A stretch of DNA of 64,000 nt from NCBI RefSeq assembly GCF_020171745.1, contig NZ_JAIVAH010000018.1, forward strand, positions 248,001-312,000, read 5' to 3'. Under the pieces are notes generated by a model. It was given only the letters and a program-made list of their open reading frames with translations, ran no database searches and was not told the origin of the DNA. The position numbers were made by a program, and so were the translations under genes. The DNA is from Prescottella equi. GTDB taxonomy: Bacteria; Actinomycetota; Actinomycetes; Mycobacteriales; Mycobacteriaceae. Shown here piece by piece: positions 40,225 to 45,242 of the stretch (position 1 is its first letter; every line of letters begins with the position of its first letter).

Positions 40225-41187
40225 ATGTGGGAGACCCTCACCACGGCGTGGGGATCGCTGCTCGAACCGCTCGGGGATCCGGTCACCCTCGCGATTCCGG
40301 CGTTCGTCGTGTTCCTCGGGCTCGAGTGGTTCGCGGCCCGCAAGCTCGAGGAGACCGAGATCCGCGACGGCCGGGCCCACCCGCCGACGGCCGGTTACGA
40401 GTTCCGGGACGCGCGGGCGTCGATCTCGATGGGCCTGGTGTCGATCGCGACCACCGCGTTCTGGAAATTCCTGGCGCTGATCGGTTACTCCGCGATCTGG
40501 GTGTACCTCGCGCCGTGGCACCTGCCGGCGAACGCCTGGTACACGTGGGTGCTCCTGCTTGTCGGCATCGACCTGCTCTACTACACGTATCACCGCATGG
40601 CGCACCGGATCCGGCTGATCTGGGCGACCCATCAGGCGCACCACTCGAGCGAGTACTTCAACTTCGCGACCGCGCTGCGCCAGAAGTGGAACAACAGCGG
40701 CGAGATCCTCATGTGGATTCCGTTGCCGCTGATCGGCATTCCACCGTGGATGATCTTCGTGGGATTCTCGGTGAGCCTGGTGTACCAGTTCTTCGTGCAC
40801 ACCGAGCGGGTCGACAAGCTGCCCCGGCCGGTCGAGTTCGTGTTCAACACCCCGTCGCACCACCGCGTGCACCACGGCTGCGATCCCGAGTACCTCGACC
40901 GCAACTATGCCGGCATCCTGATCGTCTGGGACCGGATGTTCGGGACCTTCCGGGCCGAGCAGCAGCGCCCCACCTACGGGCTGACGAAACCGGTGGGCAC
41001 CTACGACATCTGGAAACTGCAGACCCACGAGTATGCCGCGATCGGACGCGACGTCCGCGCCGCGCAGTCGTGGCGTGACCGCCTCGGCTACGTGTTCGGG
41101 CCGCCCGGGTGGGCGCCGTCAGGCGCGGGCCAGGCTCACCAGGAAGTCGACCGTGCCGTTGCCGTCGACCGTCACGAATCCCAGTGA
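40225..41187 (+). CDS. sterol desaturase/fatty acid hydroxylase family protein
   Basis: 320 residues with about four membrane helices and the three His clusters of the di-iron hydroxylase superfamily: YYTYHRMAHRIRLIWATHQAH with HxxxH and HxxHH, and NTPSHHRVHHGCDPEYLDRN with HxxHH. These bind the di-iron centre that hydroxylates or desaturates sterols, fatty acids or carotenoids at the membrane. GGAGG lies 5 bases before the ATG at 40225. Its 3' end overlaps the convergent YceI gene by 69 bp, giving the protein a hydrophilic Ala/Gln/Asp tail. An Rrf2 regulator is divergent. Substrate unknown; a sterol or mycolate role is possible. Confidence 0.88.
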   Translation: MWETLTTAWGSLLEPLGDPVTLAIPAFVVFLGLEWFAARKLEETEIRDGRAHPPTAGYEFRDARASISMGLVSIATTAFWKFLALIGYSAIWVYLAPWHLPANAWYTWVLLLVGIDLLYYTYHRMAHRIRLIWATHQAHHSSEYFNFATALRQKWNNSGEILMWIPLPLIGIPPWMIFVGFSVSLVYQFFVHTERVDKLPRPVEFVFNTPSHHRVHHGCDPEYLDRNYAGILIVWDRMFGTFRAEQQRPTYGLTKPVGTYDIWKLQTHEYAAIGRDVRAAQSWRDRLGYVFGPPGWAPSGAGQAHQEVDRAVAVDRHESQ

Positions 41188-41808
41188 CGGCGGCGTTATT
41201 CCGTAGTCCGACCAGGTGACCGGGACGGCGCCGGACGCGATCAGCGTGTCACCGGAGTGCAGCACCTTGACGTCCACGGTCACCGGCCGGGTCTGGTCCT
41301 TGAGCGTCAGCGTCCCGTCCGCCTTCACCGTGGCGGCGGTGCCGTCGGTGGGCAGCGATGCGAGATCGACCGGCGCCGTGAGCGTGAACTTCGCGTTCGG
41401 GAAGGTCTCGGCGTCCATCACGTTGCCGCGGAACTGACCGTCCCGGCGCGCATTGTCGGTGGCGATGCCGGCGACCTGCACGACGATCTCGGCGGCGGTG
41501 AGCTTCTGGCCGGCGATGCTGACGTTGCCGTTCACCTGGTCGGTGGTGCCGACGACGGTGACACGGGCGCCGTTGAGGATCTCGGACACGGTGTACCCGG
41601 CGGCGGTCGCGTTGGCGCCCTCCCCCGGCCCGACGGCCCACTCGCCGTCCACCGAGCCGGTCGCGGCCTGTGCACCCTCGGTCGACACCGAGGCGGCCGG
41701 GGCGTCGTCCTCGGCGATGAACTGACCGTAGATCCAGGGGCCCGCGAGGACACCAAGGAGAACCACGACGACCGCCCCACCGATGATCCACCACTTCTTC
41801 ACCGGCAC
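41119..41808 (-). CDS. YceI-family lipid-binding protein with N-terminal anchor
   Basis: 229 residues. An N-terminal helix KKWWIIGGAVVVVLLGVLAG anchors or exports it. After a ~40-residue acidic linker comes the YceI lipocalin-like barrel: DGEWAVGPGEGANATAAGYT, ATDNARRDGQFRGNVMDAET, FPNAKFTLTAPVDL, and VDVKVLHSGDTLIASGAVPV. YceI proteins bind polyisoprenoids in the envelope. The GTG at 41808 is the start; GTG at 41802 is the alternative. It overlaps the convergent hydroxylase by 69 bp, so both probably act on lipids. Confidence 0.85.
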   Translation of the reverse strand: MPVKKWWIIGGAVVVVLLGVLAGPWIYGQFIAEDDAPAASVSTEGAQAATGSVDGEWAVGPGEGANATAAGYTVSEILNGARVTVVGTTDQVNGNVSIAGQKLTAAEIVVQVAGIATDNARRDGQFRGNVMDAETFPNAKFTLTAPVDLASLPTDGTAATVKADGTLTLKDQTRPVTVDVKVLHSGDTLIASGAVPVTWSDYGITPPSLGFVTVDGNGTVDFLVSLARA

Positions 41809-41840: not shown

Positions 41841-42332
41841 TTACGATCCCGGCGCCGATGCCCGACGCGCCGTCGATTCGTTGCGGACGTCCTCGCCGAC
41901 CTCGGCGAGCGCCGTCCGGATCATCGCCCCGTACCCGTCGTCGCCGAGCGCATCGAGGTACTCGGCGGCGGCGTCGAGATGAGAACGCGCGGCATCGAAC
42001 GAGCCGAGCCGACGGAGGTTGTCGGCGAGGTTGAGGTGCAGCGACGGGTAGAAGCCGCGGACCGCCAGGCTCGCGTGGTGTTCCTGGACGCGGTCGTTCG
42101 TGAGGTTGTCCGCGGCGTCGAGCGCCCGGACGTCCCACATCAGCGCCTGCGCCGGGTCGTCGTACAGGTCGGCCAGGTAGTGCGCGAGCGTGCACCGGTG
42201 AAACGGGTCGCCGCTCAGGGTGATCTCGGCCCACAGGTCCAGCAGCGCGGCCCGGGCCGCGTCGGTGTCGCCGTCGCGGCCGAGAGTCACCCCGCGGGTG
42301 ATCGCGTCCATCGTCTGGTCGGTTGTCGTCAT
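41841..42332 (-). CDS. TPR-like hypothetical protein
   Basis: 163 residues. Helix-turn-helix pairs such as VTLGRDGDTDAARAALLDLW, LAHYLADLYDDPAQALMWDV and YPSLHLNLADNLRRLGSFDA, AARSHLDAAAEYLDALGDDG have the tetratricopeptide spacing with Ala/Leu at conserved positions. No catalytic motif. Its start lies 17 bp from the MerR-clamp fusion stop, on the same strand, so they are probably one transcription unit. TPR proteins of this kind usually mediate protein contacts. Confidence 0.75.
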   Translation of the reverse strand: MTTTDQTMDAITRGVTLGRDGDTDAARAALLDLWAEITLSGDPFHRCTLAHYLADLYDDPAQALMWDVRALDAADNLTNDRVQEHHASLAVRGFYPSLHLNLADNLRRLGSFDAARSHLDAAAEYLDALGDDGYGAMIRTALAEVGEDVRNESTARRASAPGS

Positions 42333-42348: not shown

Positions 42349-43410
42349 CTAGGCGTCCGACGCGGTCGGCATCGCGAGGGTGGTGAGGTCGCCGTCGGTC
42401 GCGGAGCGGATGACCACGGGCATGTCCGGGGCGGAGATGTCGAGCATGAGGTCGGGTCCGACGGCCGTCACGAGCGCCGACCGCAGATTGTCGCGGCGGA
42501 AGAACAGTTCGACGCCCGGACCGGTGACGCGGGCGTCGAGGCGCCGGTTCGGGCCGGCCGGCGAACCGACCGAGATTTCGTGCGGGGCGACCACGCACCG
42601 GATCGTCTCGGTGGGCGCACCCTCGACGGCGCCGAGCAAGGCATCGTGCTGGGCGACCACCCGGGTGCGGGTCGGCGGCAGCGCGGCCAGCATCGCCGCG
42701 TAGTCCGGGAAGGTGCCCGGCAGCACGGTGCACCGCTTCTCGTCACCGCTTGTCGAGAGGACGACGGTGTCGTCCCGTCGATCGAGTGCGAGATCGTCGG
42801 ATCCGGCGAACCACGGGACGAGCGCGGCAAGTTCACCCGCCGGAAGCACCGCGGACCACGGGGGCTGGTTTCCCGCCACTGCGAGGCTGCGCGTCGACAG
42901 GCGATAGCGGTCGGTCGCGGTCACGGTGACGGCGTCACCGCCCAACTCGATGAGTATCCCGGCCAGGATCGGGAACTCGGGATCCTCCGACACCGCGGGC
43001 AGCACCCGTTCGATCGCGTCGGCGAACAACCGTCCCGACAGCGCGACGCGCGGGACTCGCTGCCCGAGCGCGAGGGCCGCCTTCACCGCCTCGGCCTCGG
43101 CGGCGGCGTCCGCGGCCCGCTGCTGCAGGACCTGCACGTGCGCGTCGAGCAGTCGGGCGGCCTCGTCCGGGCCCGCGGAGAGGACCCGCTTCACCACGTC
43201 CAACGGCACGTCGATCGCCCGCAGTCGGCGGATCGTCGACGCCCGCTCGCGCTGCCCGGCGGCGTAGTACCGATACCCGGTTGCCGGGTCGATGCGCGCC
43301 GGTGCGAGTAGGCCGCTGTCGTCGTAGAACCGCAGCGCGCTCGGCGTCAGGCCGGTGGCGCGCGCGAAGGCGCCGATCGTGACCAGGTCGTCGAATCCGG
43401 AGGCGTTCAC
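42349..43410 (-). CDS. MerR-family HTH fused to a DNA polymerase III beta-clamp-like domain
   Basis: 353 residues. Residues 10-80 are a MerR DNA-binding domain: VTIGAFARATGLTPSALRFY, DDSGLLAPARIDPATGYRYY. A coiled coil (LDAHVQVLQQRAADAAAEAE) follows. Residues ~125-350 read as DnaN-type clamp fold, e.g. LSGRLFADAIERVLPAVSED, GILIELGGDAVTVTATDRYR (the ATDRYRL motif of sliding clamps) and LPGTFPDYAAMLAAL (the F-PDY motif). This fusion is known in databases but not functionally described to my knowledge. It may be a ligand- or clamp-sensing regulator. GTG start; the TPR-like gene follows 17 bp later. Confidence 0.85.
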   Translation of the reverse strand: MNASGFDDLVTIGAFARATGLTPSALRFYDDSGLLAPARIDPATGYRYYAAGQRERASTIRRLRAIDVPLDVVKRVLSAGPDEAARLLDAHVQVLQQRAADAAAEAEAVKAALALGQRVPRVALSGRLFADAIERVLPAVSEDPEFPILAGILIELGGDAVTVTATDRYRLSTRSLAVAGNQPPWSAVLPAGELAALVPWFAGSDDLALDRRDDTVVLSTSGDEKRCTVLPGTFPDYAAMLAALPPTRTRVVAQHDALLGAVEGAPTETIRCVVAPHEISVGSPAGPNRRLDARVTGPGVELFFRRDNLRSALVTAVGPDLMLDISAPDMPVVIRSATDGDLTTLAMPTASDA

Positions 43411-43443
43411 CCCGCCATCATGAAGTTTCGACCAGGTGGAAGG

Positions 43444-44781
43444 TCAAGCCGCGCGGCGACGCGCCTCCGCGTCCGCCCCCGTCACAGTCGGGTCCTCGGA
43501 GATCGCCGGATTCTCGACGGTGTTCTCCTCGGGGTCCTCGGTGATCGGCTCGGTCTGGGCGGCCACCTCCTTGCCGCGGCCGATCACGATCCACGCGACC
43601 AGCGCGACGACCAGGCAGGTGATCGCGCCGAGCAGCAGTCCGGCACGCCCGCCCCACTGCTGGCTGACCCAGCCGGCGATGGGGCCGCCGATCGCGGTGG
43701 ACCCCATGAACGCCGTGGACCACAGCGCCATGACGCGTCCGCGCATCTGCGGGTCGGCCTCGAGTTGCAGGGTGCTGTTGGTGGTCGAGTTGAACGCGAT
43801 GCTCACCGCACCGACCAGGGCCAGCGCGACCAGTTCGAGCGCGAGGGTGGGCGCGGCCGCCGCCGCGACCAGCGTGAAACCGAAAGCCGCCGCGGCCGCG
43901 ATCAGCACTCGGGTGCCGGTGCGGCCCCACGTGGCGACGAGCAGTCCGCCGCACACCGAGCCGACGCCCATCGCGGCCGTCATGAAGCCGTACGCCTCGG
44001 AGCCGGCACCGAAGGTCTGGTCGGCGACGATCGGCAGCACCACCTGGAACTCGAACGCGAGGCAGCCGATGAACGCCATCATCAGCAGCGGCACCGCGAG
44101 GTTCCGGTTGCCACGCACGTAGCGCAGGCCCTCGCGCAACTGGCCACGCGCCCGTTCCGCCGGTGCGGATCGGTGCAGCGCCGAAGTATCCAGCCGCAGT
44201 AGCGAGCTGACCACCGCGACGAAGCTGGCGGCGTTGAGCAGGAAGCACACGCCGAGGCCACCGGCGGCGATGGTCACACCGGCCACCGCGGGCCCGACTA
44301 TGCGGGAGACGCTGACGAGCGTCGAATTGAGACTGACCGCGTTGCGCAGATCCTGCGGCCCGACCATCTCGAGCAGGAACGATTGCCGCGCAGGGTTTTC
44401 GAAGCACTGATTCAACCCGAGCAGCAGCGCCAGCACATAGACGTGCCAGAGCTCCACGGTGCCGGTGATCGTGAGGACGCCGAGCAGCAGCGCCTGCACA
44501 CCCATGAGCGACTGCAGCCCGATCATCAAGCGACGCTTGTCTGTTCGGTCGGCAATGACGCCGCCGTACGGGCCGAGCAGCAGAATCGGCAGGGTCTGCA
44601 GCGCCACGACGACACCGATCGCGGTGCCGGATCCGGTGAGTTCGAGGACCAGCCAGGACTGCGCGACGGTCTGCATCCAGGTGCCGACGAGCGAGACGCC
44701 CTGCCCGCCGATGAAGAGCCGGAAGTTGCGGTTGGCCAGCGCGGCGAAGGTCTGGCGCCCGAGTTTCGCGGCCGCCGTCAT
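43444..44781 (-). CDS. MFS transporter (enterobactin-exporter EntS/TetV-like)
   Basis: 445 residues with twelve helices. The N-terminus FAALANRNFRLFIGGQGVSL, GPYGGVIADRTDKRRLMIGL between helices 2 and 3 (the A-like motif) and LGVLTITGTVELWHVYVLAL are those of the MFS_3 (EntS/TetV-like) group of drug and siderophore exporters. The ATG at 44781 overlaps the MarR stop by 4 bp, so both are co-translated and MarR probably controls its expression. The C-terminal 45 residues are acidic and cytosolic. The drug or metabolite exported is unknown. Confidence 0.88.
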   Translation of the reverse strand: MTAAAKLGRQTFAALANRNFRLFIGGQGVSLVGTWMQTVAQSWLVLELTGSGTAIGVVVALQTLPILLLGPYGGVIADRTDKRRLMIGLQSLMGVQALLLGVLTITGTVELWHVYVLALLLGLNQCFENPARQSFLLEMVGPQDLRNAVSLNSTLVSVSRIVGPAVAGVTIAAGGLGVCFLLNAASFVAVVSSLLRLDTSALHRSAPAERARGQLREGLRYVRGNRNLAVPLLMMAFIGCLAFEFQVVLPIVADQTFGAGSEAYGFMTAAMGVGSVCGGLLVATWGRTGTRVLIAAAAAFGFTLVAAAAAPTLALELVALALVGAVSIAFNSTTNSTLQLEADPQMRGRVMALWSTAFMGSTAIGGPIAGWVSQQWGGRAGLLLGAITCLVVALVAWIVIGRGKEVAAQTEPITEDPEENTVENPAISEDPTVTGADAEARRRAA

Positions 44782-45242
44782 GAGCGGGCCGCGGCCCGGG
44801 CCTGACACATCCGTTCGCCGAGGGCCTCGAGGGCGGGCAGAGCGTCGAGCAGGTCCTGGGTCTCAGTCTCGGGGAGTTGGCCGAGGTAGTCGGCGAACAG
44901 CAGGGTGCGCTTGTCACGCAACTCGGTGTGCAGGGCGATCCCCTCCGGGGTCGCGGACACCACGATCGCGCGTCCGTCGTCGGGATCCGCGGAGCGCATC
45001 AGCAGGCCCGCTGCCTCCATCTTGCCGATCATCCGCGAGAGCATCGTCGGGTTGAGGGTCTCGATCTCGGCCATCTCGCTGGCCCGGATCGGCCCCCGCC
45101 GCACCGCGGTCGTGAGGATCGAGAACTGCGTCTTGGTCAGTTCACCGCCCGACGTCTGGCGATCGACCTGCCGCGAGATGCGGCCGAGCGCGACCCGCAA
45201 CCGGGACACCTCGTCGTCGTCGAACAGGCTCGTCACAGCCAC
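44778..45242 (-). CDS. MarR-family transcriptional regulator
   Basis: 154 residues. The winged helix is visible: ELTKTQFSILTTAVRRGPIR, ASEMAEIETLNPTMLSRMIG, KMEAAGLLMRSADPDDGRAI with VVSATPEG as the wing. Such proteins bind palindromes as dimers and are released by phenolic or drug ligands. It is co-translated with the downstream MFS gene (ATGA). A CTTGC-N6-GCAAG inverted repeat 10 bp upstream is the probable operator. The ATG/GTG at 45242 has AGGAGG 4 bases upstream. Confidence 0.86.
   Translation of the reverse strand: MAVTSLFDDDEVSRLRVALGRISRQVDRQTSGGELTKTQFSILTTAVRRGPIRASEMAEIETLNPTMLSRMIGKMEAAGLLMRSADPDDGRAIVVSATPEGIALHTELRDKRTLLFADYLGQLPETETQDLLDALPALEALGERMCQARAAARS

Follow-up and report, generated by a model that had tools for sequence, protein, structure and literature searches.

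The window, that is, the whole stretch of 64,000 nucleotides that was analysed, carries on its reverse strand a gene encoding a MerR-type DNA-binding domain joined to a part of the sliding clamp DnaN (Table 1). This gene, hereafter called the fusion, lies downstream of a gene encoding an MFS exporter. It is preceded by a MerR-type promoter/operator whose -35 hexamer overlaps the stop codon of the MFS gene, and is followed by a gene encoding a TPR-fold protein. A YceI-domain gene (41119-41808, reverse strand) is located about 30 nt past the TPR gene, a place that it keeps in Prescottella equi; in the genus of the window, it may belong to the operon as its third gene. The DnaN of the same genome is encoded by a separate gene (locus L003).

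Table 1. Features of the fusion locus, with positions in the window and the basis of each assignment.
Feature	Positions	Strand	Basis
MerR-clamp fusion gene, 353 aa, GTG start	42349..43410	-	ORF, Pfam, phmmer, AlphaFold2 model
MerR winged HTH, residues 9-80	43171..43386	-	Pfam MerR_1 E 8e-15; pLDDT ~97
Long helix, residues 81-114, presumed dimerisation coiled coil	43069..43170	-	Helix in model; dimerisation from family resemblance
Clamp domain II, residues 118-245	42676..43059	-	PF02767; VIA alignment to DnaN
Clamp domain III, residues 249-351	42358..42666	-	Model and alignment to E. coli DnaN through residue 366
ATDRYRL, residues 165-171, peptide-cleft wall, equivalent to E. coli DnaN 171-177	42898..42918	-	T166 and R168 in 80/80; R170 in 79/80
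FPDY, residues 234-237; P235 equivalent to E. coli P242, cleft subsite I	42700..42711	-	P in 79/80
Met-Pro, residues 347-348, equivalent to E. coli M362-P363, cleft	42367..42372	-	80/80
MerR-type promoter/operator: TTGACC, 19-bp spacer, dyad centred at position 14, CATGAT; 6 nt before GTG	43417..43447	-	
TPR-fold protein, 163 aa, putative co-transcribed partner	41841..42332	-	16-nt gap; synteny; model
MFS exporter, upstream	43444..44808	-	MFS_3 E 4e-67

Domain layout and fold of the fusion

The sequence-only reading of this locus had taken the first 80 residues for a MerR HTH and the C-terminal part for a clamp-like domain replacing the usual effector, and both assignments were borne out. The Pfam model MerR_1 matches residues 11-79 above its cut-off (E 8e-15), and phmmer against PDB sequences relates the N-terminal half to MerR regulators (BrlR, E ~3e-11), BrlR and BmrR being, in sequence, among its closest MerR relatives of known structure. 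The N-terminal winged HTH of the MerR family is thus present. So is the long helix that follows it in this family (residues 81-114 of the model), which would, by resemblance to the family, serve dimerisation.

In the C-terminal half, the Pfam model DNA_pol3_beta_2 matches residues 125-236 (E 5.6e-12) and the model of the clamp N-terminal domain gives a weak match, below its cut-off, to the same stretch; domain III (residues 249-351) has no Pfam match at E<=1. With phmmer, this half retrieves mycobacterial DnaN structures among PDB sequences (E ~4e-12). An AlphaFold2 model of the fusion, built from an alignment of 80 sequences, has a mean pLDDT of 94.4 and DnaN structures as its top Foldseek matches. 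In the VIA alignment, residues 118-351 superpose on residues 124-366 of E. coli DnaN with a Z of 29.5 and an rmsd of 1.7 A over 232 residues, and the structures of DnaN with griselimycin and of DnaN with mycoplanecin A are both among those aligned to the model. No different fold was therefore obtained for the C-terminal part, and the clamp reading was not refuted. The ATDRYRL and F-PDY segments pointed out in that reading are found at residues 165-171 and 234-237, at the peptide cleft.

The same alignment covers the equivalent of E. coli 124-366 only: clamp domain I is absent, so that the fusion does not have the three domains of a DnaN subunit. As it comprises domains II and III only, it corresponds to two thirds of a clamp subunit. 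The question of whether the domain forms a complete three-fold clamp subunit was thus answered in the negative, and this reading is ruled out. Without domain I, the fusion should be unable to form the usual ring interface. Sequence, profiles and structure together support the view that it is a MerR regulator in which a clamp fold takes the place of the effector.

Distribution and neighbouring genes

The MerR-clamp fusion is frequent in Actinomycetota. In the family of the window, at least 93 of 201 genomes have a match at E 1e-15, many of them to the HTH only, and at least 60 of the 201 (a count taken from a table) have a match that covers 280 residues or more. In a sample of the phylum, a match was found in at least 40 of 396 genomes and a long one (at least 280 residues) in at least 11, the genome of the window included. 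These family and phylum counts are lower bounds, a part of the first-look candidates having been scored. A GTDB scan with a first alignment (A1) gave at least 580 stretches with a coding sequence related to either half. The best 80, which were kept, all belong to Actinomycetota, judged from their titles, and include Nocardia, Rhodococcus, Prescottella, Streptomyces, Micromonospora, Amycolatopsis, Saccharopolyspora, Kribbella, Brevibacterium and others; 79 of them have an open frame of 300-420 aa. Among the matches listed, the closest named relative is from Prescottella equi (58% identity), with the identical gene order marR-MFS-fusion-TPR-yceI. Seven plasmids from Streptomyces or Kitasatospora carry the fusion over at least 80% of its length, labelled only as 'MerR family transcriptional regulator'. 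One plasmid, pADI95-16b (L154, NZ_CP033583.1), also bears a dnaE gene at a distance of a few kb from the fusion and its partner, which may be due to chance.

A tree based on a second alignment (A2) separates three clades, B (33 members, support 1.0), C (17 members, 0.95) and A (30 members, 0.52), and the fusion of the window falls in clade A. Compared with its six closest congeners, it is 69-85% identical in the HTH and 45-63% in the clamp domains, the adjacent MFS protein being 84.5-95% identical; the cleft segments and the final stretch before the C-terminus are nearly invariant among these congeners. For one gene inside a syntenic block, the clamp part thus diverges rapidly, which fits a sensor under changing demands or a weak constraint outside the cleft. 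One other fusion (L107) is apparently broken by a frame change, which may be a sequencing error or a real decay.

Since phage clamp inhibitors acting on DnaN exist (structure 7evp, Gp168-clamp), the fusion might be a decoy sensing such phage-made inhibitors, a reading to which we give a slim chance. It is opposed by the lack of any relative in viral contigs, by two matches in phages that concern the HTH only, by the search of a defence library, which gave one match, to the HTH (mad1, E 6e-8), and by the absence of a widely shared defence neighbour. On the same grounds, a phage or virus origin of the fusion and its membership of the defence library were both rejected.

The TPR gene is found downstream of the fusion in 24 of 37 loci and in 34 of 80, often with a 4-nt overlap, and is the single neighbour common to many loci; the next cluster occurs in 8 of 76, in mixed positions. 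Neighbouring genes were called by an ad hoc rule in 5-kb flanks, by which 4 of the 80 targets were missed. One of the 33 clade B members (L109) has the TPR gene. The gene order shows the TPR gene within the putative fusion operon in most of the clade of the window. Its co-transcription with the fusion, which had been suggested beforehand, is likely in view of the 16-nt gap, the recurrence of this order and the frequent overlaps. The model of the TPR protein has a pLDDT of 92.4 and matches mostly TPR proteins with Foldseek, weakly and with none at E<=0.001. A clamp-binding motif was looked for by eye in 39 sequences of this protein, and no conserved stretch resembling QLxLF was seen. At two loci (L018 and L082), the TPR gene is apparently broken by a frame change, by sequencing error or real decay.

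The MFS gene adjoins the fusion in 7 of 37 loci, all from the genus of the window, plus L065, and the operator lies after the MFS gene and before the fusion; the exporter was consequently rejected as a conserved target. In a scan of 104 of the 148 immediate neighbour proteins (TPR genes and some others having been set aside by hand), MFS_1 was found in four and MFS_3 in two, and no resistance family was enriched or conserved among the 104. There are no biosynthetic genes among the widely shared neighbours of the fusion.

Promoter and predicted targets

In a scan that presets TTGA and the A and T of the -10 but neither the 19-bp length nor T8, A20 or the dyad, TTGACC followed by a 19-bp spacer and a -10-like hexamer was found ahead of the start in 115 of 117 loci, all with exactly 19 bp, versus 14 of 4,699 random positions. 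Dropping three duplicates leaves 114 distinct loci, of which 112 have the promoter. Of the two misses, L095 has no such promoter, and L041 has its operator slightly further up and was scored as a miss because its start had been placed too far in. Over the 115 sites, the spacer carries a dyad centred on position 14 (complementarity 69% versus 13-39% at other centres). In the operator of the window, six of the seven dyad positions pair, and a repeat search found no long palindrome there. A sigma-70 promoter scan found nothing, because its spacers were limited to 16-18 bp. According to the accessible part of PMC9909328, promoters under MerR control typically have an over-long spacer of 19-20 bp that contains a palindrome, and this trait of the family, with a central dyad, is present at the fusion loci. 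In 83 of the 115 loci, 6 or 7 nt separate the -10 from the first ATG or GTG. Because the start codon is so close to the -10, the fusion mRNA, including that of the window, is probably leaderless.

The fusion has a clamp fold beside a promoter-binding domain, and the gp45 clamp of phage T4 acts at late promoters. By analogy, the clamp part of the fusion could recruit RNA polymerase via a factor carrying a motif like those that bind clamps. This reading is given a very slim chance: MerR activators are described as DNA-distorting in the accessible part of PMC9909328, so that a tether would be needless, and the free clamp piece predicted in clade B (see below) would compete with it.

In the genome of the window, the full operator pattern with at most three mismatches has a single site, the fusion promoter, and the reversed-pattern control has none. 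A looser pattern gives 16 sites (15 besides that of the fusion) versus two in the reversed control, and the nine of these 15 that were inspected all lack a -10-like hexamer at 19 bp. Among 24 further fusion-carrying genomes, the best site is the fusion promoter in 23, the remaining one (G036) giving no match. Besides these 23 sites, the same genomes have 12 others versus three in the control; two of the 12 have one mismatch (in G324 and G075), the rest have two, and some are copies of one sequence. In five clade B genomes, the sole perfect site is the promoter of the fusion itself (5/5); six other sites were found versus five in the control, one of the six being the operator of the fusion on the opposite strand.

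As its own promoter gives the best operator match in all but one of the genomes scanned, the fusion most likely regulates itself, within an operon of one or two genes, and may have a few other sites. The looser searches do give more extra sites than the reversed control, a point against pure autoregulation. A wider regulon is unsupported but may exist; the extra sites inspected in the genome of the window have no -10-like hexamer at 19 bp, and those elsewhere are weaker. The one-mismatch operator of G324 (G324:C1:6546140-6546170) stands beside another MerR-like gene; because a good operator adjoins such a gene, a regulator related to the fusion may share this operator type.

The peptide cleft and the internal start of clade B

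The residues of the clamp peptide pocket are listed in a review (PMC11139829), the accessible part of which also states that subsite I takes the hydrophobic end of the motifs that bind the clamp. According to the accessible part of PMC10817943, this pocket is the site at which griselimycin and mycoplanecin bind DnaN. In the 80 fusion sequences, on which the pocket was mapped through an alignment with E. coli DnaN, the subsite I residues T172 and M362 (E. coli numbering) are found in 80/80, R176 and P242 in 79/80 and L155 in 77/80; L177 is present as Leu in 59 or Met in 20, and positions 152 and 246 vary. P363, which is assigned to subsite II, is found in 80/80. The mean column entropy of subsite I is 0.82 versus 2.08 for the clamp part, and none of 20,000 random draws was as low, a rank test which, like the Fisher test given below, overstates independence as the sequences are related. 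Subsite I is thus far more conserved than the rest of the clamp domain in these alignments, and this conservation may be partly structural and inherited from DnaN. Subsite II is weakly conserved overall (entropy 1.52, P 0.04).

The differences at subsite II follow the clades, which were delimited by pattern for the entropy and cleft counts; L113, L129 and L141 were entered under A for this reason, whereas the tree places them in B. In the clade B group of 30 so defined, N320 is found in 28/30, F/Y323 in 30/30 and R365 in 27/30, and V344 varies. Clades A and C have other residues at these positions: the window has R305, N308, D329 and A350 versus N320, Y323, V344 and R365 in E. coli. Because these four positions are changed, canonical clamp ligands may not bind the protein of the window.

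At the junction between the long helix and the clamp part, clade B has an in-frame ATG or GTG that a Shine-Dalgarno-like GGAG precedes by about 6 nt. An ATG or GTG with Glu three codons earlier is found in 29 of the 33 members. With the Shine-Dalgarno condition, in a count that drops sequences lacking an ATDR-like anchor (L133 in clade B), it is found in 29/32 versus 27/251 equal-sized control windows. The values for 13 further loci, which may overlap the 33, are 10/13 versus 21/122 in controls, and those of clades A (4/27, control 12/199) and C (2/17, control 20/125) are near background. When sequences are grouped at 75%, 16 of the 19 clade B clusters have the internal start. The residues before the start differ (RE, KE, EE or QE) and the Shine-Dalgarno letters are constant. 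Where Arg occupies the site, the rare codon AGG precedes GAG in 13/18 cases versus 19/1,305 elsewhere in the same genes (Fisher p 5e-19, a value that is too strong because the sequences are related), and other Arg codons before Glu are AGG in 0/64. The predicted anti-Shine-Dalgarno pairing is -8.3 versus -3.0 kcal/mol at other in-frame ATG or GTG codons. In the five members with Val as the start residue, the codon is GTG, which is weak evidence alone as GTG makes up 48% of all Val codons. These data point to a selection acting on the clade B mRNA for a separate clamp-like piece.

The conservation of the cleft and the internal start also bear on a reading in which the clamp part is a structural leftover, i.e., a module for dimerisation or stability whose cleft has no ligand. 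The clamp part is variable overall (45-63% between congeners) and some of the cleft residues may serve packing in DnaN, as would suit this reading. It is nevertheless rather improbable, since subsite I is far more conserved than the remaining domain and since a passive module would not need the separate clamp piece for which codon-level selection is seen in clade B.

The strongest rival explanation, which is unlikely in our view, is that the fusion senses the status of replication or repair. The cleft would bind the clamp-binding motifs of the polymerases and repair factors of the cell, the amount of free motif would rise under replication stress, and the TPR protein would be an adaptor working with repair enzymes. 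In favour of this explanation, subsite I, which is the seat of the hydrophobic end of the motifs (accessible part of PMC11139829), is kept, as is most of subsite II in clade B; conversely, subsite II is altered in clades A and C, and the full operator pattern is found solely at the fusion in its own genome. The context of the TPR paralogues bears on it in both directions. Among the 44 loci fetched, in which L213 and L218 are the same place, as are L219 and L220, the paralogue is adjacent to ung in 17 (among them L204, L205, L207-L209, L213, L215, L227-L229, L231-L233, L236, L241 and L244), to dnaE2 in two (L216 and L217) and to the fusion in eight; the other 17 have other or unclassified neighbours, which goes against the explanation. 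It lies just downstream of ung and just upstream of dnaE2. One neighbour of each kind was scanned with NCBIfam: ung was above the cut-off, and the dnaE2 piece, which is cut short by the end of the locus, fell below it for this reason. These linkages hint that the TPR family works with DNA repair. However, the ung cases all come from one family (f4) and the dnaE2 cases from one genus of the family of the window, so that the linkages look like two inherited gene orders.

A proposed clamp-derived sensor and its relation to known systems

The accessible part of PMC7762955 presents TipA as a 'minimal autoregulated' multidrug system, in which thiopeptides are sequestered by a short form of the protein. 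The TipA class (TipAL/TipAS, SkgA) and AlbA are antibiotic-binding, self-inducing MerR regulators, as far as the accessible sources describe them. The fusion resembles them in its N-terminal MerR HTH, its long helix, its C-terminal module and its promoter, which is predicted to be self-directed. In clade B alone, it also resembles the TipA class in having an internal start predicted to give the module alone. By contrast, its putative sensor consists of clamp domains II-III and not of the TipAS fold, the TipAS effector domain (PF07739) having no match in the fusion in a Pfam scan to E 1. In addition, the clade of the window differs from the TipA class by its lack of an internal start and, usually, by an added TPR gene. 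Because the internal start is absent from clades A and C, a TipA-like short form is inapplicable to the gene of the window. The multidrug MerR regulators BmrR, Mta and BrlR share the MerR architecture with the fusion and carry other sensor folds; among the loci examined, the fusion has an MFS neighbour in one genus only.

The fusion and DnaN have in common the fold of domains II and III and the hydrophobic cleft subsite; unlike DnaN, the fusion is devoid of domain I and is joined to a DNA-binding regulator. GriR and MypR, which are second DnaN copies in the gene clusters of the griselimycin and mycoplanecin producers (accessible part of PMC10817943), are likewise extra DnaN-derived proteins with a drug-binding pocket. 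They are, however, encoded by DnaN genes within biosynthetic clusters, whereas the fusion is a two-domain fragment within a regulator.

We propose, with a confidence that falls a little short of even, that the fusion is a MerR-type sensor that regulates its own expression and senses through sliding-clamp domains II and III. Its operation could be as follows. A dimer of the fusion would sit on its own promoter. Once a ligand fills the clamp-derived cleft, the dimer would kink the over-long spacer, allowing RNA polymerase to engage. The cell would then make more of the ligand-binding protein, plus the TPR protein in clade A or the free clamp-like piece in clade B, the output being mainly more binder, in the way that TipA/TipAS deals with thiopeptides. 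The ligand is the least certain step; it could be a compound or peptide attacking the clamp cleft. Griselimycin/mycoplanecin-type cyclic peptides are candidates in clade B, and something differently shaped would be expected in the clade of the window, subsite II being changed there. We infer that the leading candidates are either a compound that targets the clamp or a peptide of the cell that binds it. Because the fusion appears to control mainly its own operon, it can be read as a self-inducing binder, and because its anatomy matches that of TipA, its cleft is proposed to bind a clamp-directed ligand; the fusion thus probably induces itself and binds something directed at the clamp. It is possible, though somewhat doubtful, that it is a target-mimic sensor, in which actinomycetes have recycled the antibiotic-binding part of the clamp to provide a self-inducing regulator with its sensor. 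A clamp-directed compound would switch on this regulator and be soaked up by the look-alike; clade B would free look-alikes through its internal start, and subsite II would have been retuned between clades to suit different compounds.

The self-inducing MerR sensor is known as a kind of system, and the fusion is present in databases under a generic name. The sequence-only reading knew of no functional description of such a protein, and none was found either in the searched literature, which covers subscription journals thinly and was accessible in part. As far as these searches go, the clamp as a sensor, the self-directed operator and the internal start of clade B are new within that literature.

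DnaN is a validated antituberculosis target through the griselimycins, according to the accessible part of PMC10817943. If the fusion is an inducible clamp mimic, it would represent an unrecognised route to sense and tolerate clamp inhibitors, in which a drug target is recycled as the sensor of the drug, and would provide a ready biosensor for new clamp inhibitors. If its ligand is a protein of the cell, it would directly link replisome contacts to transcription. Either reading gives a testable function to a common family that is labelled 'MerR family transcriptional regulator' in plasmid records.
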